A stretch of 29,313 nucleotides of DNA from a virus, in the IMG/VR virus record IMGVR_UViG_3300049812_004853, positions 1 through 29,313 of that record; one strand, 5' to 3'. Below, piece after piece: positions 1,053-22,057 of the stretch. Every line of letters begins with the position of its first letter. Within the stretch, counting starts at the first letter, position 1. The position numbers were made by a program, and so were the translations under genes. The notes below the pieces were generated by a model that searched no databases, had not been told where the DNA came from, and worked only from the letters and a program-made list of their open reading frames with translations.

Positions 1053-1239
1053 AAATATAAAAGAGTGTTTTATACCGAAGGGGAATCTGCATAGAATCTG
1101 TATGTATTATGATCTGATTGAATGTAGATTTAAATGCTTCTGAGAGTTGTGACCTTTGCGAGCATAGCATAAGGATCGCACTTCGTCAAGATATCAGACG
1201 GGCAAAATTCACAGAATGTTACAATTAGTACACAAGTAT

Positions 1240-1266: not shown

Positions 1267-1442
1267 TCTCGACTAGATTTTAAGCATTATACTTGACATC
1301 TCGACGAGATAGCACTATAATAACAGTATACAATTCAATTCTCGACTAGATTTTATGTACGACGATTTTGATCTCGACTATACATATGACTACTCATCGA
1401 GTCTCGACGAGGACTATGCCGACAGGTATCTTCTCGACGAGA
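1267..1442. repeat. cluster of six TCTCGAC(G/T)AGA near-palindromes
   Basis: Six copies of an 11-bp motif lie on one strand: TCTCGACTAGA at 1267-1277, TCTCGACGAGA at 1299-1309, TCTCGACTAGA at 1340-1350, TCTCGACTATA at 1372-1382, TCTCGACGAGG at 1402-1412, and TCTCGACGAGA at 1432-1442. Start-to-start distances are 32, 41, 32, 30 and 30 bp, close to three or four helical turns, so all copies face roughly the same side of the DNA. TCTCG-A-CGAGA is a perfect inverted repeat around one central base. One copy fills the spacer of the promoter at 1293-1321 and one ends 5 nt before the next ATG. The first and third copies extend to a 16-nt direct repeat ending in TTTTA. Two degenerate reversed copies (TAGTACGAGA) follow at 1510-1519 and 1583-1592. 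Confidence 0.85.
1293..1321 (+). promoter_or_regulatory. consensus sigma70 promoter with palindromic operator in its spacer
   Basis: TTGACA (1293-1298), a 17-nt spacer, and TATAAT (1316-1321) form a perfect sigma70 promoter. The spacer begins with the inverted repeat ATCTCG-A-CGAGAT (1298-1310), whose first base is the last base of the -35 box, so a protein bound there would block polymerase. Further copies of the motif lie 32 bp upstream and 41 bp downstream. The predicted start is near 1328, giving a leader of about 27 nt. The layout is that of a repressible promoter with three operators; the regulator is unknown. Confidence 0.8.
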
Positions 1443-1504
1443 ATGAAGAGCATGCACGAGAAAGTACAGACTTTCAACAACTTGCATATATGCATTATGC
1501 GTGA
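1355..1504 (+). CDS. small, very acidic Asp/Tyr-rich protein, 49 aa
   Basis: ATG 1355 to TGA 1502-1504 encodes 49 residues starting MYDDFDLDYTYDYSSSLDED. About a third of the residues are Asp or Glu, with seven Tyr and few basic residues, so the protein is strongly acidic. Three internal copies of the surrounding DNA repeat encode Leu-Asp or Leu-Asp-Glu (DLDY, SLDED, LLDEN) with CTC-GAC-GAG codons that are unusual in this AT-rich genome. There is no Shine-Dalgarno sequence; the last non-coding repeat copy occupies its place. The gene sits between a perfect promoter and a strong terminator. An acidic protein of this size could be a DNA mimic or a binding partner of a regulator, but that is speculation and I do not recognise the family. 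Confidence 0.6.
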   Translation: MYDDFDLDYTYDYSSSLDEDYADRYLLDENEEHARESTDFQQLAYMHYA

Positions 1505-4364: not shown

Positions 4365-4538
4365 ATGAAAAAAAATTTTGACGAAATTTATTCCACTGTA
4401 GAGATCGATCCAGTAACTGACCGATATCATATGACAATTCCAGAAGAAGTTGTAAATGAACTTGACTGGTATGAAGATCTTGTGTTAAAATGGAATCTAG
4501 ATGTAGACGGAATTTACCTTACCTTAAAAGATGACTAA
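4365..4538 (+). CDS. small AbrB/MazE-like (swapped-hairpin) protein, 57 aa
   Basis: ATG 4365 to TAA 4536-4538 encodes 57 residues. After a short lead (MKKNFDEIYSTVEIDPVTDR), the rest follows the AbrB/SpoVT/MazE half-barrel pattern: a strand ending in IP (YHMTIPEE), helix VVNEL, a WYEDLVLKWNL strand, and a closing DGIYLTL strand. In that family the pattern is -x-IP-xx-V-xxL-xx-xD-x-hxW-…-DG-x-h-x-L, and members are dimeric DNA-binding proteins or antitoxins. DNA binding is therefore plausible but inferred from pattern alone. The stop overlaps the next gene by 8 nt. The repeat-rich 150 bp upstream would be a natural target if it autoregulates. Confidence 0.65.
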   Translation: MKKNFDEIYSTVEIDPVTDRYHMTIPEEVVNELDWYEDLVLKWNLDVDGIYLTLKDD

Positions 4539-7556: not shown

Positions 7557-9458
7557 ATGCCTTTCTCAAATTTTACAAATCTTGATTTCGATCAGATAAA
7601 AACATCAATTAAGGACTATTTAAGAGCAAATTCTAATTTTTCGGACTTTGACTTTGATGGTTCAAACTTTTCTGTCTTAATTGACACACTTGCGTATAAC
7701 ACATATATTACTGCATTCAACTCAAACATGGTTGTAAACGAATCTTTCCTTGATTCTGCAACTTTGAGAGAGAATGTGGTTTCATTAGCATCAAACATTG
7801 GATATACACCAAGGTCTAGAACGGCAGCAAACGCACAAATATCGTTTGATGTTAGTATCACTAGTAGTGTGAGTTCAGTCACCTTACAACCTGGTATAGT
7901 ATGCACAGGAGACGTTGATAATGAGACATATACTTTTGCAATTACAGAACCAATAAGTGTAAATGTTGTTGATGGGGTTGCAAAGTTTGAAAATATTAAT
8001 GTTTATCAAGGAACTTACCTAGAAAAAACATTTAAATATGACGGATCACTTGATCAAAGATTTATATTAGATAATGCATTTATAGATACTTCAAAAATTG
8101 TTGTTTATGTCAGACCAGATGGAAGTAACGTAACTGGAACTGAATATACACTAATAGATGATATTGTTAATATTGATTCAAATTCAAAAATTTTCTTAAT
8201 CAAAGAAATACAGGATGAAAGATATGAATTAAAATTTGGAGATGGATTTTTTGGTAAAAAATTAGGAAGTGGTGCTAATCAGGATGGTGATGAAATTATT
8301 GTCAAATATATTACAACAGATGGTGAGGAAGGAAATGGCGCACAATTTTTTACTTTCTCTGGAATATTAAAATCTGGAAACACAATCGTAAATTTTGAAA
8401 CTCCATCAATTATAACGAATGTCAAAGCACAAAATGGAGGAAATATTGAATCTATTGACTCAATTAAGTATTTTTCACCAATAACGTACTCATCTCAGAA
8501 TCGAGCAGTTACATCAAGGGATTATGAGTCAATAATTAAGAAAATTTATCCAAATACAGAGTCTGTCTCAGTAATCGGTGGTGAAGAATTAGATCCACCA
8601 GAATTTGGTACAGTTGTAATCAGTATAAAACCCAAAAATGGTGATTTATTATCAGATTTTTCAAAAAATCAAATTTTATCAAAATTAAAGCAATATACAA
8701 TTTCAGGTATTAATCAAAAAATTGTAGATCTTAAAATATTATATATTGAACTTGATTCAAATGTGTATTATAACGATTCTTTTATATCATCAGCTGATTC
8801 TTTAAAAACAACTGTCATAGATTCTCTCACAAAATACTCTCAATCAATTAACTTAAATCAATTTGGTGGAAGATTGAAATATAGTAAGTTGTTAAGTGTT
8901 ATTGATAATAGTAATAAAGGAATTACATCAAATATAACTAAAATTAGAATGCGCCGCAATTTACAAATAGTATCAAACAAATTTTCACAATATGAATTGT
9001 GTTTTGGTAATAAATTTTACGTTGATCCTAGTGGATTTAATATAAAATCAACTGGGTTTACAATTTTTGGAAAATCAGGAACATTCTATCTATCAGATAT
9101 TCCAAATTCTGATCTTACAACAGGAGTTTTACGTATAATTCAAATATTAGAAGATGGGTCAATAGGTAATATCATTTCAAATGCAGGATCAATCGATTAT
9201 GAAAAAGGTGAAGTAAATGTATCCACAGTTAATTTTTTATCAACAGAAAAACCTAATAATATTATTGAAGTACAAGCATTTCCAAGATCAAATGATGTTG
9301 TCGGATTAAAAGATTTGTATGTCTCACTTAACATCTCAAATAGTTCAATAAATATGGTAAGAGATGTTATTTCATCAGGGGACGAAGTTTCTGGAGTTCA
9401 ATTTACTAGAGATTTCTACTCATCAAGTTATCCAAACGGAAAAATAATTAGGACATGA
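7557..9458 (+). CDS. 6: gp6-like baseplate wedge protein, 633 aa
   Basis: A 633-residue protein, close to T4 gp6 (660). The N-terminus (MPFSNFTNLDFDQIKTSIKD) is the usual 'loop then helix' start with LRENVVSLASNIGYTPRS (about 63-80). A baseplate-J/gp6 core follows: FGDGFFGKKLGSG-GDEIIVKYITTDGEEGNG (about 227-262) and SRDYESIIKKIYPNTESVSVIGGEE (about 320-345). The C-terminal 200 residues are beta-rich and more divergent. In T4, gp6 dimers join neighbouring wedges and form the inner baseplate ring. The ATG directly follows the gp25 stop, and its own TGA overlaps the next ATG by four bases (ATGA). Confidence 0.95.
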   Translation: MPFSNFTNLDFDQIKTSIKDYLRANSNFSDFDFDGSNFSVLIDTLAYNTYITAFNSNMVVNESFLDSATLRENVVSLASNIGYTPRSRTAANAQISFDVSITSSVSSVTLQPGIVCTGDVDNETYTFAITEPISVNVVDGVAKFENINVYQGTYLEKTFKYDGSLDQRFILDNAFIDTSKIVVYVRPDGSNVTGTEYTLIDDIVNIDSNSKIFLIKEIQDERYELKFGDGFFGKKLGSGANQDGDEIIVKYITTDGEEGNGAQFFTFSGILKSGNTIVNFETPSIITNVKAQNGGNIESIDSIKYFSPITYSSQNRAVTSRDYESIIKKIYPNTESVSVIGGEELDPPEFGTVVISIKPKNGDLLSDFSKNQILSKLKQYTISGINQKIVDLKILYIELDSNVYYNDSFISSADSLKTTVIDSLTKYSQSINLNQFGGRLKYSKLLSVIDNSNKGITSNITKIRMRRNLQIVSNKFSQYELCFGNKFYVDPSGFNIKSTGFTIFGKSGTFYLSDIPNSDLTTGVLRIIQILEDGSIGNIISNAGSIDYEKGEVNVSTVNFLSTEKPNNIIEVQAFPRSNDVVGLKDLYVSLNISNSSINMVRDVISSGDEVSGVQFTRDFYSSSYPNGKIIRT

Positions 9459-12400
9459 TACAAACAGGGATTGTAAGTAAAGTAAAAATACAAGATATAT
9501 TATCGAATCAACTTCCCAATTTTATTCGGGATGAAAGTCCTCTTACTGTTGATTTTTTAAAACAATATTATATTTCACAAGAGTATCAAGGTGGTCCTAC
9601 TGATATTTCCGATAATTTAGAGCAATATATTGATATTAATAATCTAACACCAGAAGTCATAGTTGATAGTACAATTTTATCTTCAGGAATAACATCAACA
9701 ACTTCTGAAATTGTTGTTTCATCAACAAAGGGATTCCCTAATCAGTATGGACTATTTAAGATAGATGATGAAATAATTACATACACTGGTTTAACTACAA
9801 ATACATTTACTGGTTGTATTCGTGGATTTAGTGGAATTACTAGCTATCATGCTGATTTAGAAAAGGACGATTTGGTATTTAATTCATCAACAGCAGAAAG
9901 TCACGTTACATCATCTTCTGTTCAGAATTTAAGTTCATTATTTTTAAAAGAATTTTATAAAAAATTTAAAGCAACATTTTTACCAGGATTAGAGGAAACT
10001 GATTTTCAATCAAATTTAGACGTTGGAACATTTATAGGAGAAGCAAGGTCACTATATCAGACAAAAGGAACAGATGAGTCATTTCGAATATTATTTAATG
10101 TTTTATATGGTATAACACCGTCTATTCTTAATTTAGAAGAGAGATTAATAAAACCCTCATTTGCAAATTATGTGCGAAGAAGAGTTTGTGTTGCCGAACT
10201 TTTAGAAGGAAATCCTCGAAAACTTCAAGGACAATCTTTACTTAAAGGATTGACTGGACAAACTTTGTTTAGAAGTGATCTTGATATTGATGTAAACGCA
10301 TCAATATCCGAAATTGAACCTTTTGAAAGAACTGATTCTGGTTTGAGTGGAATCACAACTTACTATAAGATTGGTTTATTTATTGGATATGATGATAATT
10401 CAGATGTAAGAAGTGATTTTATAGTTGTTCCAAATACAAAATCAATTGAGAATGTTTCAGTTGGTGCGAGTGTAATTACTGTTGATTCAACAGTTGGTTT
10501 TGGAACTACAGGAACAATTATATCAGGTGTAAACACAATCACATACACTGATAAAACAGTAAATCAATTTTTGAATTGTACAGGTATTACGAGTGCAATA
10601 GAACCGATACAAAATATTAGATCAAACATAACTTATTTTGGTTTTGAGGATGGTGACTTAAATAAAAAAGTAGTATTAAGATTAACTGGAGTTATTTCTG
10701 AGTTTGAACAAGAGGGAAATATTGACGTTAATGAAGGAGAAATAATTTCTATCAAACATATTGGTGATAAAGTTCAAAATCCTGAAAGTAATGCAACATA
10801 TAAGGAAACTTTTGCAAATTCATGGATTTATAATACGAGTTCTTCATATTTTATTGTAGAAAAATCGGGTAATACTCATACTTTAGGTAGTGAAATTGAC
10901 CAATCAAGTTTAAAGGTTGGTGATACTGTTGAGATTGTTCAAAGAGATAGTAATAATATTATACCATCAAGTGATGAAATTCGTGTAGTGAGTATTAATA
11001 AAAATGAAAATTCTGTTACTTTAAGTGATAGTGTTATTTCAGATTTTGTTACCGAAGAAGATAAAGAAAAATTTAAGTTAAGAAAAAAATTAAATAAACC
11101 AAATAGTTCTGGTGCTGTAATAGAGTATGGTTCTAATTTAATATCAGATATTCAAAATGTTTATGTTGATGATGAAAATGCGTATATTACATCAAACTCA
11201 TTACCATCATTTTCAAATATATCTAACAAGTATTTTGATCAAATAAAAATAAATACAAAAAATATTTCAGCAAATTTTGCAGATGCTAATAATGTAATAT
11301 TAGAAGATCCACTAGATGATGAAACGACTTTTTCAACAATAAAATTTGGATCTGCTGTTCCATTTGAAACTGGAGATAAAATATTTTACAGTTTTACCAA
11401 TGGAAATTCACTTGTAGGTTTAGAAACTGGTGCTTACTATCTAAAAGTTTTTGATGATAATGAAAAAATTAAATTATATGGATCTCCTTCAGGTTTAGAT
11501 GATGGACAGAATATTAATATTTCAAGAGATCCAAATGATGGAATTCATAATTTTATTTTATTTTCGCAGAGATCAAATAAAATTGGTGCTCAGAAGTTAG
11601 TAAAAAAATTCACTTTATCCCAAAATTTAGGAAATGGGGAAAATGAAGTAACACCAGTTGGTGAAACAGGAATATTAATTAATGGAGTTGAAATTAAAAA
11701 TTATAAATCCGATGATAAGATATATTTTGGACCATTAACTTCTGTTGATGTTTTAAATTCTGGTGAAGATTATGATGTGATAAATTTACCTAATATTATA
11801 ATATCAACTGGAATTGGCACAACTGCACTGGTACAACCTGTTGTGTCTGGTAAAGTTGAAGATGTTTTTGTAGATCCTCAAAATTTTGATGTTGATCGAA
11901 TAGTATCAATTGGAATAACTGGAGGTAATGGATCTGGTTGTATATTAGAACCAATTATAGGTACAAGATTTAGAAAAGAATTCTTTAGAACAGAACCAAT
12001 AACAAACGAAACTAGTAGTGGTATTAATACAACTAATGAAACTATTACATTTTTGGAAGAACACAATTTTGTTGATGGAGATAAAGTAATTTATGATTCC
12101 AATTCTCGTGAATCTATAAAAATTGTAGGTGTTGCAACTAACAAATTAGTCAATAATTCAGCTTACTATGTTGGATTAGTCAACACAAAGACAATTAAAT
12201 TATATGAAACATTTGAAGATTATTCATCTGGAATATCAACAATAAATTTAGGTTCTAATAGTGGATTAGGTAACCATATTTTTAAAATTGGATTAAAAAA
12301 TTCTTTATTAGATATAAAGGTCATAGATGGTGGTCAAAATTACACTAATAGAAAGTTAATTGTCAAACCAACAGGTATATCCACAGCAAATAATACAATT

Positions 12401-15400
12401 AATTTTACAAATCATGGATTTAATGATGGTGATTTAATTGAATATACTGGAAATATTTCGGGATTGAACCAAAATAATAATTATTACATTGTTAAAACCG
12501 ATGATAATTCTTTTAGTTTAAGTAATGCTGGAGTTGGTGGAACAATAATATCAAACTATCAAAGAGAAGAGATAGTAACTTTAAATTCTGTGGGTTCAGG
12601 ATCTCACATTTTCAAATTTCCAGATATTAAAGTATCTGTATCAATCGCAAATACAGTAGGAGTTGGAACCACAAGTTTAATTGCAACACCTAAAGTAAGA
12701 GGATCTATTAAACAACTATATCTTTATGAACCTGGTACTGGTTATGGTTCAACAACTGTTAATAATCATAAAAAACCAATAACAACTTTAAAAAATGGTA
12801 AAAATGCATCATTAACACCTATTATCAAAAATGGTGAAATTTCAGAAGTTACAATTCAATCAGGTGGAAGAGAATATTTTTCAGTTCCTGACCTTGAGGT
12901 TATAGATTCAACTGGTAAAGGTGTTGGGGGATTATTAAGACCAGTAATATCAAATCAAAAAATAACTGATGTTATAATCATTAATTCTGGAATTGGATAT
13001 TCAACTTCATCATCAATAAATGTTAAACCCGCAGGTAAAAATGCATTATTTAATTCCAGTGTAAGATCACTCACTATAAACAAAGGTAATAATCAAAATG
13101 GAATTAACGTCACTGAACATTTAGAGGAATCTGAAAATAAACTTAAGTATAGTTTTATTGGTTATTCAACAAGTCCATTTAATGATGATGGTACAAAAGT
13201 ATCTGAAATTATTGGATGGGCATATGATGGAAATCCAATATATGGACCTTTTGCTTATGATAATCCAGAAAATCCTCCCAGTAACGATATTGGTAGAAGA
13301 AGATTAGTATCAGGATATACACTTAACACTGCAAATATAGTTGATAGACCAAATTTTGTAGGTGGTTTCTTCGTGGAGGATTATATTTTTACAAATGCTG
13401 GAGATTTAGATGAACATAATGGTAGGTTTGAAATTACCGAAGATTTTCCAAATGGTGTTTATGTATATCATGCTACAGTAGATGCAGATAATAACCCAAC
13501 ATTTCCATATTTTATAGGAGATACTTTTAGATCTAAAAAAGAAAATTTTAACTTTGAAAATAATTTACAGACAAATTTTGATTTTGCTAGTAATAATCTA
13601 TTAAGAAATACATTTCCGTATAAAGTCGCAGACAATTTTGCAAATAACGATTTTATTGTAGAAACTAATGAAATTGAAGATCAAAAAATTGAAATATCTT
13701 CAGTTTCATCTGGATCAGTTACTGGATTTGAAATTTTAAGCAGTGGTTCTGATTATAAAGTGGATGAATTGTTAAGTTTCGATTTAGATAATTCTGATGA
13801 TTTAATTACATCAATATCAAAAGTAAAGGGACAAACAGTAACAAATTTAACCTCTGAGATTGAAAAAACAGAAGATTCAGTATTATTATGGTCTGATGGT
13901 AAGATAAAAGTGGTTACACCAACTAGTCATATCTTTAACACTAATGATGTAATCAATATATCAGGTTTGACAACTGATTTGTCATCATTAAACGGTAGTT
14001 ATAAGATTGGAATTACTACATCTGCATCAAAAACAATATCTACAATTTCATCTTCACCAGTTGCAGGATTTACAACAGAAATATTTGTTTCAAGTATTCC
14101 ATCATCTATCTCTGTAGGAAGTAGTATTGGTATAGGAACTGAGACTTTGAAAATATTGAATATTTACGATAATTTAAATATTTTAACTGTTCAAAGAGAT
14201 ACACTAGCTTATGGTACAGTTCACAATCGGGGAACTCAAGTAAATTATTTACCTAATTTATTTACATTCAATAAAGACATATCTTTCTTTGATTCTATAG
14301 TCAATAAAAAAGTATTTTTCAATCCAGATCAAACAGTTGGTATAGGAACTGATGATGGAACTGAAAATACGTTATCATTCTCTTTTGCTGGTAGTAATAT
14401 AACAAGAAATGTACCAACAAAACAAATATATCTTGAAAATCATCCATTTAAAACAAATGAAAAAGTAATATTTACAATACCTAGTGGATCTCCCGTAATT
14501 GCAATATCAACTGATAAAGATTCTCCTACATTTAACCTTTCAACTGGCGATTCTTTATATATTGTAAATAAAACAATTAATACAGTAGGTATAAAAACAG
14601 GTATTGGAAATAATTTTAATGAAGTATACTTTAGAAATATCAACAGTGCTGATAGTGATCTATATTCATTTGAAACTGATTTCAATCAAGTTAAAACCAC
14701 TGTTAGTAGAGTAAAAACAACAGTAACCACATCTTCATCACATGATTTAGAAAATAATGATTCAATTGACTTATTAGTCAAACCTAAATTATCGGTTGGT
14801 ATAGGAACTTCATCTCATGTAAGAATTTTAAGAGATACTGAAACAGGTAATTTATTAATTAATCCAATTTCATTCAGTAATGCTGGAATATCAACATTAA
14901 CAAATACAATTACTATAGTTGATCATGGATTAAAAACAGGTGAAAAAATTAAATATAATTCAAATTTACTTCCAGAAGGATTACAAAATCAAAATTATTT
15001 TGTATATAAAGTTGATGATGATAATATAAAATTAGCAAAAACATTTAAAGATTCAAAAAAATTAATACCAAATATAGTTGGTTTGGGGTCAACTGGAGGA
15101 ACATCACAATCTCTATCTTTAATTAATCCACAATTAATTTCTATAAAGAATAATAACTTAAGATTTGATTTATCTGATTCTTCAGTTTCTGGTTACAAAT
15201 TAAGATTCTATTATGATCAAGACTATGGTAATGAATTTATATCATCTGGAATTTCCACTATTTTTGATGTAGTATCAGTTGGAAATACCACAACGATTGG
15301 ATTTGGAACTGCTTTACCAGAAAAATTATATTATAATCTTGAAAAATCTGGATCAATTAGCACAACTGACACCGAAGTTCACAATTATTCAAAAATAATA

Positions 15401-18400
15401 TTTGTAGACAGTGATTATAATGGAACATATAATATTAATAGAATTGATGATACATCTTTTAGTTTGTTTTTAGGTGATAGACCTGAAAAATTATCTTATA
15501 ATAATGTTGAGGCAACCACAACATATAAAACAAATTCAAAAACAGCAAAGGGTGGTATTGAAGCAGTAAAAATAATATCAAGTGGGTCTAACTTTAAAAA
15601 ATTACCTGATTTTGTTGGTGTTTCAGGGACTTCTATTGGTAGAGGTGCTGCTATTATTCCTACATCAAATTCAATAGGAATTGTTGAATCTGTGAGAGTT
15701 ATTAATGAAGGGTTTGAATATTCCTCTGACAAAACTTTAGAACCAGAAAGTTTAATAGCTTCAACCATAGAAATTAAAAATTCAAGTACTTTAGGTATTG
15801 TTAGTGTTACTAATGGTGGATCTGATTATATTAATGCACCAGATATTGTAATTATTGATTCTGATTCTGGAGCAAAAATTGAAAGTGGTTTTATAGAACC
15901 GATAATGCTTGAAAATAGTATTTTATCTGTTGATATTAAAGAACTTCCTAAAGGTCTACCACTAAATCCTGTAACTCTAAGAACTATTAATAATACAAAC
16001 GGAATCACAATACTTGAGGTTAAATCTAATGCAGGATCTTCTTATACATGTAAATTATCAACTCCAGATGGATTATTTTCATCAAACCCATTTGCAGTTA
16101 ATGATAGAGTTTTTATAGAAGGTATAGAAAAAATTTCTGGAATAGGTTCGGGATTTAATTCCAAAGATTATGGATTTAATTTATTAAAAGTAACAAAATT
16201 CAATGCAAATGTTGGTGGATTTGCAGAGATAACAATTGATGTATCTGAGTTTGGAGCAAGTAACACAGGTATTGCAAAAACAATCGTAACAACATTTGCA
16301 AATGCTATAAATGAAGCAGATTATCCCAAATTCTTTGTAACACAAAATCAATCTTTATTTGATGTAAATGAACCACTGATAATTAATAACAGAACTTCAA
16401 ATTTAAAAATTGTAAAAACATCTAATAGTAAGTTAAAAGTATTTGGAACTGATAACTTAAATGTAGGTGATATTTTATCAGGAAAAAATTCTGGTAGTCA
16501 AGCAACAGTTTCTAAAATTACAGAAAATAAAGGTAGATTAAAGACAGATTTCTCTATTTCAAAGAATATAGGATGGAATGATAATATTGGAAAATTAAGT
16601 GAAGATTTTCAAGTTATACCTGATAATGATTATTATCAAAATATGTCTTACTCTATTCAAAGTCCTATAGAGTGGAGAAATTTAGTAACACCTGTTAATA
16701 ATTTACTACATTCGAGTGGAACTAAAAATTTTGCTGATACTGGGATAACATCTACGACTAACATATCAATAGGTTCTTCAGATATAGTCTCAGTTATTGT
16801 AGATTTATTTGATGAGAAAAGAGTGGACGAATTGAGAAATATTGACACAGTAAGGGATGACGATGTAACTGATGATAATATAACTAGAAAAATTGTTTTT
16901 GATAATATTCGATTATCAAATTATATTAGTTGTGATACGAACGATGTTCTTGTAATTGATAATATAAATCAAGAATTTTCTAATTTAGAAGGAGATCCTG
17001 ATGATTTTCTAACCTTATTACAATTTAATCCCAATGAAAATGAACTATTCAATAATTTTTTAATTCGTACTGAAAGTAACTCCACTCAAGTTAATCGAAT
17101 ACAATTTTCAGATTTCTTGGTATTAAGTAATGGTGATACTAATATTCTCCTTGAAAAAGGTAGATTGATAAATTCAGGTATTGGACTTACAAATTCAGAA
17201 GAAAATAATTTTGTTGATTTTAAATTAGTTAAAGACAATAATACTGAAATTGAATCATTTAGATTTTCACCATCTTCAGATGAGAATTTGGATATTGATT
17301 ATGATTTAAAATTATTCTCATCCAATTTTACTAGCACTGTAATCGGTGTTGGAACAGCATCAATAGGCACAATTGATTTAACATCTGTCATAAAAACCTG
17401 TCAAGTAGGTGTAACTACAAATATTATTTCAGTTCCTACAAATAAATTTGAATCATTACATGCTTTAGTAAATGTGATCAATACTAATACTAATGAGATG
17501 AATTTAGTAGAAACCTTTGTTTCTCACAATGGTAATGATTCATTCATCGCACAATCATTCATAGACACTGAAACAAATCAATTATCTACCAATCAAATAG
17601 GAATTATCACTTCTACAATATCTAATAATAAGTTAAATTTAACTTTTGAAAATAATTTAACAGGTTCTAATACCATTAAATTAAAAGCAAAAGTGATTGG
17701 TATCGGTACAACTGGAGTTGCCAACGGAACTTACAGATTCAAGGCAAATGGTCAATCAGATGGATCTGAAAGAACAACTTTATATTCAGGACTATCGTCA
17801 ACAAATACAGGTATTTCAACAATTATTAGTTTGAATTCTCAATTATTTAATTCAATAAAATCAGTCGTTGAAGTTAGTATAGGATCATCAAAAGCACTGC
17901 ATGAAGTTCTAGCTATACACGATGGAACAGATGCATACGTTCAACAATCTGGTTCATTATCAATCACCAAAGATTTTAATTCAGAATATGATCCTTCATT
18001 AGGATTAGGAACATTTAGTGCGTCTTATACATCAAATATTTTTGAACTGAAATTTCATCCAGATAACACAACTGGCATATCCACTGTTGTTTCATTAAAT
18101 CATTGTTTTTATAATGAATTAGATAAAGTTAATACACCTTTAGATTTAGTATATGGAGGTATAAGAGAAAGTAACGAAGTAAAAGAGTATAATGCTTTAG
18201 AGGGAACTAGAGTTAAAAAAACAGAGTTTGATTTAACTGTTAATGAGACACCAATTTTTGCAAAATCATTTAATCCTTCAGATTCCTCTGTTTTAAATTT
18301 ATCAACTGGTAAGTTTACAATATCCAATCATTTCTTTAGAGAAAATGAAGAGTTAATATATCTTCCTAAATCTACATTTGTTGGTGTTGGTTCCACTGCG

Positions 18401-21400
18401 ATGCAATATAAAAATGGATCTTTCGTAGATATTCTTCCATCAACAGTATTTGCAAATACTGTGACTAAGAATTCATTTTTCATATCAACTACAAGATCAG
18501 GAACAGCTGTAACATTTGTGAGTGTGGGAGAAGGAAATGCACATAAATTTGAAATGAAAAAAAGCAATGAAAAATCTATTATTTCAATTGATGATGTTGT
18601 ACAATCACCTTTAATTAATACTAATGTAAATCATTTATTAGAGAATAATATTGGATCTCAAGTTGGACTTAACACTAGCATTATTAATTTAAGTGGAATT
18701 TCAACAATTTCAGTAGGTGATATTTTAAAAATAGACAATGAATTCTTAAAAGTTGTGAATGTGGGTATTGCAACAACAAATGGAAATCCTGTTGGAACAT
18801 CAGGAACTTTTAATGTGGTTGAAGTTGAAAGAGGATTTGTGGGCACTTCTAATTCAACTCATGCTGATGGAACTACGGTTCAAAGATTTACTGGAACTTA
18901 TAATATAGTTGAAAGTAAATTATTCTTAAGTGATCCACCAAGAGGTAATCCTAATAGAGTTAAGGATGATAGTAATTTAGATTTTCCAAGGTCAACGTTT
19001 AATGGAAGAGTATATTTAAGAAATAATTATGATAGTAATTTGATATATGACGATATTTCAGATAGTTTTACTGGAATAAAATCAACATTTACTTTAAAAG
19101 TTGGGGGAGCTAATACAATTGGAGTTGGAACAACTGGTGGAAGTGGTATTTTATTCATAAATGGTATTTTCCAATCACCATCAACAGAATTCAATCCAGA
19201 TAAAAATTTCAAGATAATTGAGAGTGGTACTGGTGCAACAGGAGTTACAAGTGTGGTATTTTCAGGAATAACATCAGATAATGGATCTCCGTTCATATCA
19301 AATGATAATATTAACTTTAATGAATTACCAAGAGGTGGTATTCCCATATCATTTGGATCAACTGTTACAGGATTGGGTTATGCTCCATTAGTTGGTGCAA
19401 AAGTGAAAGTACTTACTGGTGTAGGTGGAACAATAACGGACGTTGTTGGGGTAGCATATAGTGGATCTGCATTAGGAATTCAAACTGCTACTTATAATGA
19501 AGTGACAGGTATAATGACAGTCAAAACTGTTAATGAGCATAAATTTAAAAATTCAAATGAGGTAGTATTACTTGGAGGTTTAGAATTTGCTTGTGCTGCT
19601 CCTCATGCTGGAGTTACAACAACTATCTTTCCTGATGGCACAATAGGAGATAAATTCCCTGTCGTATCAATAGCAGCAACAAATGTATTTGGTATTAACA
19701 TTGGTGTTAGCACAATACCTCATGCTTATGTTGGATCAGGTAATGCTTATCCATATTTTAGTAATTTAACCTTTGGATCTGGATATAATGGATTAGTATC
19801 AATAGGAGTGACTGTTGAAGATTTTGGATATGAACATCGTTTCGTGTCTGCTGATGTGAATGGTATTGATAAAAACAATGGTGGTGATATTACTGCAATT
19901 GATGCTGAATATAACCCCACAACAGGTGTTTTAGTTATTACCTCTCCAAATCATGGTATGAGTGATAACGATCTGGTTTTAATTAAAACTGGTTCAATTA
20001 GATTTACATGTGCAAGGGATAATTTTAAAACAGTTCATCCATATCCAAGATCAACTGATCCAGTAGCTGGTATCAATACAGTGGTCGATGTATTAACTCC
20101 TGATGTATTCAGTGTGGATGTTGGTGTCAATGTTGGAAGTGGTGCACAAATAACTGCGACTGCAGGTGTTGGTGGAACAGCAATATTTACAATTGCAGCA
20201 GCAGGATCAAATTATAAAGATCCTGAAGTATTTGTATCTGAACCATCATATTCAAATTTATCAGTGACTGGTGTTTCAAGATTAGGTATTGGTACTACCA
20301 CAGATACAGGAACTGGTTTGAGAGTTAATGCGATAGTAAGTGCAAGTTCAACTACTGGAATAGGTTCAACAATGTTTGAGATTTCAAGATATGAAATTGT
20401 AAATTCTGGTTATGGATTTAAAGAGGGAGATGTTGTTGAAGCTGTTGGTTTGGTCACTGCAAAGGGCATGGGATCTCTTCAAACTAGATCAACTCTAAGT
20501 ATCGATCAAGTTTATAAGGATCGATTTGCAATGTGGCAATTTGGTGAATTTGATTATATCGACTCTATCAAATCACTTCAAAATGGAACAAGAACTAGAT
20601 TCCCACTTAATTTCAATAATGAGTTGATTAGTGTAGAGGCAAGTAATACACTATCTGAAAGTGTAGATATTGAGAATATATTCTTTGTTACTATAAATGG
20701 TATAATTCAAGAACCAACTAAAGCATATACTATAAATGGTGGAACTTCCATAAACTTCAGTGTAGCACCAACTGGTGATTCTGAAGTTGGAAAAAATGAT
20801 GGTGATGATATTAGTATTCTATTTTATAGAGGAACATCTGGAGTAGATTCATTAATTGTTGATGGAGATGATTCAAATATAAAAACAGGTGATGGAGTAA
20901 GAATTGAATCTGGTAATCAAATACCAGCACAAGATAATAGAACCATAACGGGAATTACTACATCGACTGTTTTAGATACAACTGTATATCGAAATCAAGG
21001 TATTAGTGATATAATTTCAAGACCTCTAACACTCATTAAACAAAAAAATGATCTTACGATTAACAAAGTTGTGGTTTCGAAAAAAAGATCTGAGTTAGAA
21101 CCAAGAATAATACCAATTGCAAAGATAATTGATGATATTTCTACTACAGATACGGTGTTGTTTACAGATAATGCAGATTTATTTAATTATGAAGATGAAG
21201 GAACAGTATTGATAAATGCATCAATTACCAATTTAAGTAATCTCAATTCCGTGAATGCATCTGCTACTGCAACTGTTTCTTCAGGAACAGTCAGTGGAAT
21301 TACAATAACTAACGTTGGTTCTGGGTATGCATCAGCCCCAACAGTTTCTATTTCTGCTCCACCAAGTATTGGTGTTGGTGTAGGAACAACAGCAACTGCC

Positions 21401-22057
21401 ACGGCAGTCTTAGGGGGTGATTTTTTATATGATATACAAATTACAAATCCAGGTTTAGGATATACCATCGCACCAAAAGTTTTGATTAGTAGTCCAATAC
21501 AATCAAATACCTTTGAAAACTTAACAACTTCAGGATTAACTATTTTGGAAAGCGCTGGTTTGATTACAGGAATCGGAACAACAACATTATCAAATAAATT
21601 GGGATTAGAATTTTCAGTGAAAAAGGATAGTACTGCAAACTTTAATGCAATAAATGTTGGTGATCCAATTTATATTTTTAACACTACAATCGGATCAGGA
21701 CTTATATCTATTAATAATAGTGGTTCAGATACTGATACTGTGGGTATTGGTACAACATTTGTGGATAATATATATACCGTTGCATCATTTACAAGTAGTG
21801 CTAATACTGGAGTTGTTACTTGCCTAATAAAATCTAACACATCCACCACTGGATTGAGTGCTGTTGGATTTGCGACAGCACCAGTTGGAAACTATTCCAT
21901 AGCAAAAATAAGTGGATTTACAAGATCATCATCACCTGTATCAATCGGAGTTACGGGATTGACTATTGATGCTGGATTATCAACATTCCCAACACTTAAA
22001 AGGACTGGTGGTAACGATACATTCAATAAAACTGGTGGATTATTGACACCTTCTTAA
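9455..22057 (+). CDS. giant gp7-like baseplate protein with YHYH domain and beta repeats, 4,200 aa
   Basis: A single 12.6-kb frame that overlaps gp6 by 4 nt (ATGA). Residues about 20-60 (LPNFIRDESPLTVDFLKQYY) and 190-240 (IGEARSLYQTKGTDESFRIL, then FNVLYG) match the part of T4 gp7 that reads YDFYSTKG-ASYKFLFKVLYNEE, so the N-terminus carries the wedge-initiator core, in gp7's place after gp6. The rest is beta modules: RG-…-H 'III-Y-GL' units (80-140), VxxGSGYTxxP units (about 770, 950, 1090, 1130-1200, 2030-2120, 3590, 3650, 3940-4010), NHG-GD-V-Y units (about 860, 980, 1820, 3350, 3490) and NGIxQxP units (about 3050, 3230, 3750). A YHYH domain lies at about 1230-1360 (GWAYDGNPIYGPF, then LDEHNGRF, NGVYVYHAT, PYFIG). 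T4 gp7 is only 1,032 residues. The extra mass probably forms peripheral baseplate structures. Codons are very AT-rich. Confidence 0.88.
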   Translation: MIQTGIVSKVKIQDILSNQLPNFIRDESPLTVDFLKQYYISQEYQGGPTDISDNLEQYIDINNLTPEVIVDSTILSSGITSTTSEIVVSSTKGFPNQYGLFKIDDEIITYTGLTTNTFTGCIRGFSGITSYHADLEKDDLVFNSSTAESHVTSSSVQNLSSLFLKEFYKKFKATFLPGLEETDFQSNLDVGTFIGEARSLYQTKGTDESFRILFNVLYGITPSILNLEERLIKPSFANYVRRRVCVAELLEGNPRKLQGQSLLKGLTGQTLFRSDLDIDVNASISEIEPFERTDSGLSGITTYYKIGLFIGYDDNSDVRSDFIVVPNTKSIENVSVGASVITVDSTVGFGTTGTIISGVNTITYTDKTVNQFLNCTGITSAIEPIQNIRSNITYFGFEDGDLNKKVVLRLTGVISEFEQEGNIDVNEGEIISIKHIGDKVQNPESNATYKETFANSWIYNTSSSYFIVEKSGNTHTLGSEIDQSSLKVGDTVEIVQRDSNNIIPSSDEIRVVSINKNENSVTLSDSVISDFVTEEDKEKFKLRKKLNKPNSSGAVIEYGSNLISDIQNVYVDDENAYITSNSLPSFSNISNKYFDQIKINTKNISANFADANNVILEDPLDDETTFSTIKFGSAVPFETGDKIFYSFTNGNSLVGLETGAYYLKVFDDNEKIKLYGSPSGLDDGQNINISRDPNDGIHNFILFSQRSNKIGAQKLVKKFTLSQNLGNGENEVTPVGETGILINGVEIKNYKSDDKIYFGPLTSVDVLNSGEDYDVINLPNIIISTGIGTTALVQPVVSGKVEDVFVDPQNFDVDRIVSIGITGGNGSGCILEPIIGTRFRKEFFRTEPITNETSSGINTTNETITFLEEHNFVDGDKVIYDSNSRESIKIVGVATNKLVNNSAYYVGLVNTKTIKLYETFEDYSSGISTINLGSNSGLGNHIFKIGLKNSLLDIKVIDGGQNYTNRKLIVKPTGISTANNTINFTNHGFNDGDLIEYTGNISGLNQNNNYYIVKTDDNSFSLSNAGVGGTIISNYQREEIVTLNSVGSGSHIFKFPDIKVSVSIANTVGVGTTSLIATPKVRGSIKQLYLYEPGTGYGSTTVNNHKKPITTLKNGKNASLTPIIKNGEISEVTIQSGGREYFSVPDLEVIDSTGKGVGGLLRPVISNQKITDVIIINSGIGYSTSSSINVKPAGKNALFNSSVRSLTINKGNNQNGINVTEHLEESENKLKYSFIGYSTSPFNDDGTKVSEIIGWAYDGNPIYGPFAYDNPENPPSNDIGRRRLVSGYTLNTANIVDRPNFVGGFFVEDYIFTNAGDLDEHNGRFEITEDFPNGVYVYHATVDADNNPTFPYFIGDTFRSKKENFNFENNLQTNFDFASNNLLRNTFPYKVADNFANNDFIVETNEIEDQKIEISSVSSGSVTGFEILSSGSDYKVDELLSFDLDNSDDLITSISKVKGQTVTNLTSEIEKTEDSVLLWSDGKIKVVTPTSHIFNTNDVINISGLTTDLSSLNGSYKIGITTSASKTISTISSSPVAGFTTEIFVSSIPSSISVGSSIGIGTETLKILNIYDNLNILTVQRDTLAYGTVHNRGTQVNYLPNLFTFNKDISFFDSIVNKKVFFNPDQTVGIGTDDGTENTLSFSFAGSNITRNVPTKQIYLENHPFKTNEKVIFTIPSGSPVIAISTDKDSPTFNLSTGDSLYIVNKTINTVGIKTGIGNNFNEVYFRNINSADSDLYSFETDFNQVKTTVSRVKTTVTTSSSHDLENNDSIDLLVKPKLSVGIGTSSHVRILRDTETGNLLINPISFSNAGISTLTNTITIVDHGLKTGEKIKYNSNLLPEGLQNQNYFVYKVDDDNIKLAKTFKDSKKLIPNIVGLGSTGGTSQSLSLINPQLISIKNNNLRFDLSDSSVSGYKLRFYYDQDYGNEFISSGISTIFDVVSVGNTTTIGFGTALPEKLYYNLEKSGSISTTDTEVHNYSKIIFVDSDYNGTYNINRIDDTSFSLFLGDRPEKLSYNNVEATTTYKTNSKTAKGGIEAVKIISSGSNFKKLPDFVGVSGTSIGRGAAIIPTSNSIGIVESVRVINEGFEYSSDKTLEPESLIASTIEIKNSSTLGIVSVTNGGSDYINAPDIVIIDSDSGAKIESGFIEPIMLENSILSVDIKELPKGLPLNPVTLRTINNTNGITILEVKSNAGSSYTCKLSTPDGLFSSNPFAVNDRVFIEGIEKISGIGSGFNSKDYGFNLLKVTKFNANVGGFAEITIDVSEFGASNTGIAKTIVTTFANAINEADYPKFFVTQNQSLFDVNEPLIINNRTSNLKIVKTSNSKLKVFGTDNLNVGDILSGKNSGSQATVSKITENKGRLKTDFSISKNIGWNDNIGKLSEDFQVIPDNDYYQNMSYSIQSPIEWRNLVTPVNNLLHSSGTKNFADTGITSTTNISIGSSDIVSVIVDLFDEKRVDELRNIDTVRDDDVTDDNITRKIVFDNIRLSNYISCDTNDVLVIDNINQEFSNLEGDPDDFLTLLQFNPNENELFNNFLIRTESNSTQVNRIQFSDFLVLSNGDTNILLEKGRLINSGIGLTNSEENNFVDFKLVKDNNTEIESFRFSPSSDENLDIDYDLKLFSSNFTSTVIGVGTASIGTIDLTSVIKTCQVGVTTNIISVPTNKFESLHALVNVINTNTNEMNLVETFVSHNGNDSFIAQSFIDTETNQLSTNQIGIITSTISNNKLNLTFENNLTGSNTIKLKAKVIGIGTTGVANGTYRFKANGQSDGSERTTLYSGLSSTNTGISTIISLNSQLFNSIKSVVEVSIGSSKALHEVLAIHDGTDAYVQQSGSLSITKDFNSEYDPSLGLGTFSASYTSNIFELKFHPDNTTGISTVVSLNHCFYNELDKVNTPLDLVYGGIRESNEVKEYNALEGTRVKKTEFDLTVNETPIFAKSFNPSDSSVLNLSTGKFTISNHFFRENEELIYLPKSTFVGVGSTAMQYKNGSFVDILPSTVFANTVTKNSFFISTTRSGTAVTFVSVGEGNAHKFEMKKSNEKSIISIDDVVQSPLINTNVNHLLENNIGSQVGLNTSIINLSGISTISVGDILKIDNEFLKVVNVGIATTNGNPVGTSGTFNVVEVERGFVGTSNSTHADGTTVQRFTGTYNIVESKLFLSDPPRGNPNRVKDDSNLDFPRSTFNGRVYLRNNYDSNLIYDDISDSFTGIKSTFTLKVGGANTIGVGTTGGSGILFINGIFQSPSTEFNPDKNFKIIESGTGATGVTSVVFSGITSDNGSPFISNDNINFNELPRGGIPISFGSTVTGLGYAPLVGAKVKVLTGVGGTITDVVGVAYSGSALGIQTATYNEVTGIMTVKTVNEHKFKNSNEVVLLGGLEFACAAPHAGVTTTIFPDGTIGDKFPVVSIAATNVFGINIGVSTIPHAYVGSGNAYPYFSNLTFGSGYNGLVSIGVTVEDFGYEHRFVSADVNGIDKNNGGDITAIDAEYNPTTGVLVITSPNHGMSDNDLVLIKTGSIRFTCARDNFKTVHPYPRSTDPVAGINTVVDVLTPDVFSVDVGVNVGSGAQITATAGVGGTAIFTIAAAGSNYKDPEVFVSEPSYSNLSVTGVSRLGIGTTTDTGTGLRVNAIVSASSTTGIGSTMFEISRYEIVNSGYGFKEGDVVEAVGLVTAKGMGSLQTRSTLSIDQVYKDRFAMWQFGEFDYIDSIKSLQNGTRTRFPLNFNNELISVEASNTLSESVDIENIFFVTINGIIQEPTKAYTINGGTSINFSVAPTGDSEVGKNDGDDISILFYRGTSGVDSLIVDGDDSNIKTGDGVRIESGNQIPAQDNRTITGITTSTVLDTTVYRNQGISDIISRPLTLIKQKNDLTINKVVVSKKRSELEPRIIPIAKIIDDISTTDTVLFTDNADLFNYEDEGTVLINASITNLSNLNSVNASATATVSSGTVSGITITNVGSGYASAPTVSISAPPSIGVGVGTTATATAVLGGDFLYDIQITNPGLGYTIAPKVLISSPIQSNTFENLTTSGLTILESAGLITGIGTTTLSNKLGLEFSVKKDSTANFNAINVGDPIYIFNTTIGSGLISINNSGSDTDTVGIGTTFVDNIYTVASFTSSANTGVVTCLIKSNTSTTGLSAVGFATAPVGNYSIAKISGFTRSSSPVSIGVTGLTIDAGLSTFPTLKRTGGNDTFNKTGGLLTPS

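Follow-up and report, generated by a model that had tools for sequence, protein, structure and literature searches.

The DNA considered here, hereafter the window, is a stretch of 29,313 nucleotides from IMG/VR virus record IMGVR_UViG_3300049812_004853 (positions 1 to 29,313), and it raises the question of why six near-identical palindromic sites crowd around and inside one small gene. The window covers part of a T4-like cyanophage genome, with small early-type genes followed by homologues of baseplate gp25, recognised by homology search, and gp6. After the gp6-like gene lies a 4200-residue ORF (9455-22057, + strand), in the position occupied by the giant gp7 in P-SSM2.

A scan of the window with the pattern TCTMGWCKAGA, allowing at most one mismatch, found six copies between 1267 and 1442 and zero elsewhere in the 29 kb. 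They start at 1267, 1299, 1340, 1372, 1402 and 1432, in steps of 32, 41, 32, 30 and 30 bp. Four of the six are exact TCTCGACKAGA, and those at 1372 and 1402 carry one mismatch each. When the window was dinucleotide-shuffled 300 times, no cluster of at least six sites in 200 bp arose (at most 3 sites); 1000 shuffles of positions 901-1900 likewise gave none (at most 2). All six 11-bp sites that the initial annotation had described within 176 bp were thus recovered with their spacings, and the shuffles never reproduced the cluster. Its placement of the sites (one upstream, one in a promoter spacer, one at the ribosome-binding position and three in coding sequence) also matched the coordinates found, and the perfect sigma70 promoter with a site inside its spacer was located. 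The features are as follows; the site copies have no strand assigned.

1161-1189, minus strand: divergent promoter-like sequence TTGACG-17-TATGCT, upstream of the array
1267-1277: candidate operator copy 1 (TCTCGACTAGA), upstream of the -35 box, kept in loci L001-L005
1293-1321, plus strand: sigma70 promoter TTGACA-17-TATAAT of the small gene, 12/12 matches, conserved in relatives
1299-1309: copy 2 (TCTCGACGAGA), filling the -35/-10 spacer
1340-1350: copy 3 (TCTCGACTAGA), at the ribosome-binding position, ending 4 bp before the ATG at 1355
1355-1504, plus strand: 49-codon ORF encoding an acidic LAYRHYA-family protein of 49 aa, whose C-terminal residues persist while their codons vary synonymously
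1372-1382: copy 4 (TCTCGACTATA, one mismatch), within L-D-Y codons
1402-1412: copy 5 (TCTCGACGAGG, one mismatch), within L-D-E codons
1432-1442: copy 6 (TCTCGACGAGA), within L-D-E codons

Proteins of the LAYRHYA family are 42-71 aa long, end in LAYRHYA and are very acidic, with a median net charge of -14 over 128 distinct sequences. Pfam and PHROG searches with family members gave no match, and the structure model was of low confidence (pLDDT 62). Since the C-terminal LAYRHYA residues are kept while their codons change synonymously, the protein is real.

Comparison with related sequences showed that the motif first proposed, TCTCGAC(G/T)AGA, had captured a recurring near-palindrome but was too narrow. 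The full unit is a symmetric 13-bp palindrome, ATCTMGWCKAGAT, of the form ATCTMG-W-CKAGAT. Its half-sites vary independently, and asymmetric non-coding variants point one way in 68 cases and the other way in 48, a pattern that a dimeric DNA-binding protein would predict. The suggested helical spacing also stood in part: non-coding spacings in relatives tend to cluster near multiples of 10.5 bp (31-33 and 41-42 bp; vector length 0.39, N=225 non-independent spacings), but spacings of 24, 36 and 39-40 bp were found as well. Spacings between coding copies are additionally constrained by the reading frame.

IMG/VR was searched with the 49-aa protein, independently of the motif, and the array was kept in all seven loci found, with L006 and L007 partly degenerate to half-sites. 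At the level of sequence, these seven loci are the least biased evidence of conservation. The expected recurrence of the motif in related genomes was borne out in them and in many loci found by the motif itself, the latter inflating the apparent conservation. Because the motif served as the search key, the following counts show breadth and not frequency: ATCTMGWCKAGAT arrays of 3-11 copies lie on more than 100 IMG/VR contigs, a pair-of-sites pattern matched at least 119 viral stretches, and arrays with at least three sites occur in 122 loci among those examined. The small gene is present in 89 loci, representing 73 distinct coding sequences. Several of the genomes are fragments, and the sequences behind the codon and spacing counts are related to one another, which inflates those counts. 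At least one of the arrays, that of L224, resembles a GC-rich tandem repeat of unrelated kind. The pair pattern also matched at least 119 stretches in bacterial genomes, by title mostly unrelated bacteria, which we took as chance matches of common codons.

Named carriers of the array are S-T4, S-SRM01, P-SSM2, AG-345-F15 and AG-345-L05. The small protein is identical in P-SSM5, and S-SKS1 retains two complete sites along with many half-sites. The S-SKS1 gene (L381:8893-9096) holds half-sites ACGAGAT in R-D-T codons, not full palindromes in L-D-E codons. S-BM3 carries a diverged array and no intact small gene. In the remaining T4-like cyanophages compared, which are the majority, exact sites did not cluster. 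We also looked for a diverged motif at the equivalent place of array-less phages (Syn9, S-PM2 and others) and rejected it, as a clearly denser cluster was seen only in S-PM2 and is unrelated in sequence. This S-PM2 cluster (L271:11471-11603) consists of seven copies of GAAATCTCA in about 130 bp, spaced mostly 17 bp apart and located upstream of gp25.

The position of the sites relative to the promoter and the start codon was then compared across loci. The -35/-10 spacer held a full core in 43 of the 48 distinct loci whose promoter could be scored; 25 further loci were unscorable because the promoter pattern was mismatched, some of them carrying TATACT by eye. In 70 of 73 distinct loci, a core ended 2-8 nt upstream of the start codon. 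Thus repeated palindromic sites overlap promoter elements. The composite pattern TTGACA-operator-TATAAT matched 112 viral stretches, compared with 4 for the control with a reversed operator. Among 88 distinct promoter-operator matches, 75 precede a LAYRHYA-type ORF and 8 lie by unrelated genes or no genes, each with a single core; the others are multi-core arrays with no ORF in the range searched.

Codon choice in the coding copies is consistent with selection on the DNA itself, as the initial annotation had suspected. Within the small genes LD[EDY] is spelled CTC-GAC 145 times out of 177, while their other leucines are mostly CTT; neighbouring genes use this spelling for 34 of 278. In related sequences the sites are therefore conserved as DNA beyond coding, both in codon choice and in the non-coding copies. 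An element acting in RNA, whose transcribed copies would pair with one another or recruit an RNA-binding protein to the start codon, might be expected to look similar, for the copies are near self-complementary and one precedes the start codon in nearly all loci. We consider it quite improbable: fold z-scores of four leaders (-1.75, -0.26, -0.30 and +0.88) were not significant, an Rfam search gave no match, and the upstream and spacer copies lie outside the transcript from the array promoter.

The initial annotation had also offered a partition- or origin-like array, in which an initiator or centromere protein would occupy iteron-like repeats. In keeping with such a site are the multiple, phased repeats, the AT-rich DNA upstream and divergent promoter-like sequences (TTGAC-17-TATGCT or TATAAT); a strict promoter pattern detected a divergent one in 19 of 67 distinct loci, and 67 shuffled segments gave none. 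In P-SSM2 the detrended GC-skew maximum is close to the array, but in S-SRM01, S-T4 and S-BM3 the skew extremum is more than 10 kb away. Moreover, no iteron, Rep or Par signature was seen, nor any Rep or Par gene close by; the sites match promoter spacers with precision, and the array is absent from most T4-like cyanophages compared. With skew extrema not consistently at the array, this proposal found no support, and an origin or partition site is very unlikely.

Two other gene families were observed in the array neighbourhood. A GIY-YIG endonuclease family (Pfam) is found at L119:10576-11394 (- strand) and in 30 other loci; in 26 of 26 loci with comparable orientation its gene is upstream of the small gene and on the other strand, and none was seen near the array in the window. 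A DUF6267 protein is encoded at L012:1513-2412 (- strand) and in 47 other loci of the array neighbourhood, and in array-less phages too; its KIDG motif is, by eye, reminiscent of nucleotidyltransferases.

Gene and array do not always travel together. Sf-CH8 has a LAYKHYA homologue, read by eye, without an array, so the expectation that relatives keeping the gene also keep the motif fails in this one distant case. Arrays without the small gene were found in S-BM3, L419 and L454, and S-SM2 lacks both, its promoter leading straight to the next gene. The gene-only state of Sf-CH8 and the array-only state of S-BM3 indicate that the two are separable. Such separability between phages, within a variable region of small genes, would suit module shuffling like that of T4-type PeSL cassettes, where conserved repeats at gene borders promote recombination. 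This reading is highly unlikely, as it leaves the palindrome, the fit to the promoter spacer and the in-gene copies unexplained.

Some relatives carry two to four arrays, the window genome having one. The extra arrays precede two other small-gene families, ITPISRKAKNRFSNLMG and QTPYNQCEWRTQSF; they are intergenic, often overlap the preceding stop or the following start, and have no sigma70 promoter recognisable by sequence. These promoterless arrays indicate that simple promoter occlusion is not the whole story. They, together with the sites inside coding sequence, would fit a stoperator-like silencing in which the chief effect of the sites is to stop RNA polymerase during elongation throughout the early small-gene region, with the promoter site as a single example. 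The cyanophage sites, however, are palindromic, clustered and of no fixed orientation, unlike mycobacteriophage stoperators (PMC6550527), and the window's genome has a single array. We therefore regard silencing mainly by elongation block as unlikely. A multi-site operator at the promoter, which accounts for most of what was observed, is the reading we prefer; a further part as roadblock or in looping is suggested by the promoterless arrays.

A host-encoded regulator was considered and rejected: in 390 cyanobacterial genomes arrays were absent and a single paired match was seen, and 30 small cyanobacterial genomes, selected on size, held about 30 exact sites, below the about 160 matches of the reversed pattern (row sum). 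Comparison of seven array-bearing with six array-less phage genomes established no regulator, and gave as best candidate a family represented in the window by the following gene.

4365-4538, plus strand: 57-aa protein with a predicted MazE/AbrB swapped-hairpin fold, candidate regulator, 3 kb downstream

By blastp, this was the only small non-structural family present in 7/7 array-bearing and 0/6 array-less genomes, and its gene lies downstream on the same strand in 22/22 loci holding both gene and array. A Pfam search with the window protein gave no match. The structure model (pLDDT 85) resembles MazE and AbrB N-domains, with a MazE match probability of 0.99 and TM of 0.71, none reaching E<0.001. 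Profile searches found remote MazE/AbrB-like relatives in array-less S-PM2, Syn1 and others, which weakens the link to the array; the match in S-BM3 was weak, and Sf-CH8 carries a MazE/AbrB-like protein without an array. That the protein at 4365-4538 is the array's regulator is hence a doubtful assignment.

Taken together, the array is probably a multi-site transcriptional operator for a dimeric, most likely phage-encoded DNA-binding protein that would shut off an early promoter. The operator proposed by the initial annotation is well supported at the DNA level by the kept sites, the spacer site, the codon skew and the 112 against 4 matches, and the cooperative regulator it added is plausible. 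In the mechanism we propose, a dimeric protein would read the 13-bp ATCTMGWCKAGAT, one half-site per subunit. Bound in the spacer, it would keep host sigma70 RNA polymerase off the strong early promoter, and binding upstream, at the start codon and in the gene, roughly on one DNA face, could give cooperative repression and a roadblock. The operator may thereby time or autoregulate the acidic LAYRHYA protein early in infection. The sequences directly show the sites with their placement and conservation; protein binding, cooperativity and the identity of the regulator are inferred, as is repression, and not activation, from the spacer position of the site. A bolder version, to which we give little credence, is dedicated early-gene silencing by a MazE/AbrB-fold oligomer that would act on promoter, intergenic and in-gene palindromes as repressor and roadblock, with the LAYRHYA protein as its antagonist. 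If this were true, the LAYRHYA sequence would be partly dictated by operators encoded in its own gene.

The array looks like a previously unreported on/off switch of an early gene in T4-like viruses of marine cyanobacteria. In the papers searched, neither the motif in connection with cyanophages nor any of the locus tags sought turned up, and no early-gene repressor system for T4-like cyanophages was found. A conserved operator array with an attached target gene, on more than 100 viral contigs, could serve as bait for finding the regulator, and it offers a way to ask how these phages time early transcription with host RNA polymerase. The array further provides a clear example of a protein sequence shaped by regulatory DNA.

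The operators OL and OR of lambda consist of several near-identical palindromes around a promoter, one of which excludes RNA polymerase. The array likewise has promoter palindromes, one positioned against RNA polymerase, but here up to 11 copies run through the start codon into coding sequence, and the phages are lytic T4-like cyanophages. lac O2 and galOI are auxiliary operators inside genes, and the in-gene copies of the array could similarly strengthen repression; the difference is that two to four copies sit in a gene of about 50 codons and apparently shape its amino-acid content (LDE repeats). PeSL cassettes, which have been discussed for T4-like phages (PMC4503421), share with the array a conserved regulatory sequence in the variable early region. 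Such a cassette combines an early promoter with a stem-loop terminator; the array has the promoter and is a repeated palindrome, with no terminator-like site called there. A hairpin between sites was seen by eye in some secondary arrays. The stoperators of cluster A mycobacteriophages are asymmetric 13-bp sites, mainly in one orientation genome-wide, bound by the immunity repressor (PMC6550527). Both systems have many copies of one site, and in related cyanophage loci some intergenic copies appear promoterless, as judged by sequence. For the cyanophage sites, neither one predominant orientation nor genome-wide dispersal was found; all exact TCTMGWCKAGA matches fall in one cluster in P-SSM2, G001, G412 and G413. 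In contrast to stoperators (PMC6550527), they are palindromes without a preferred orientation and lie only in the early region.
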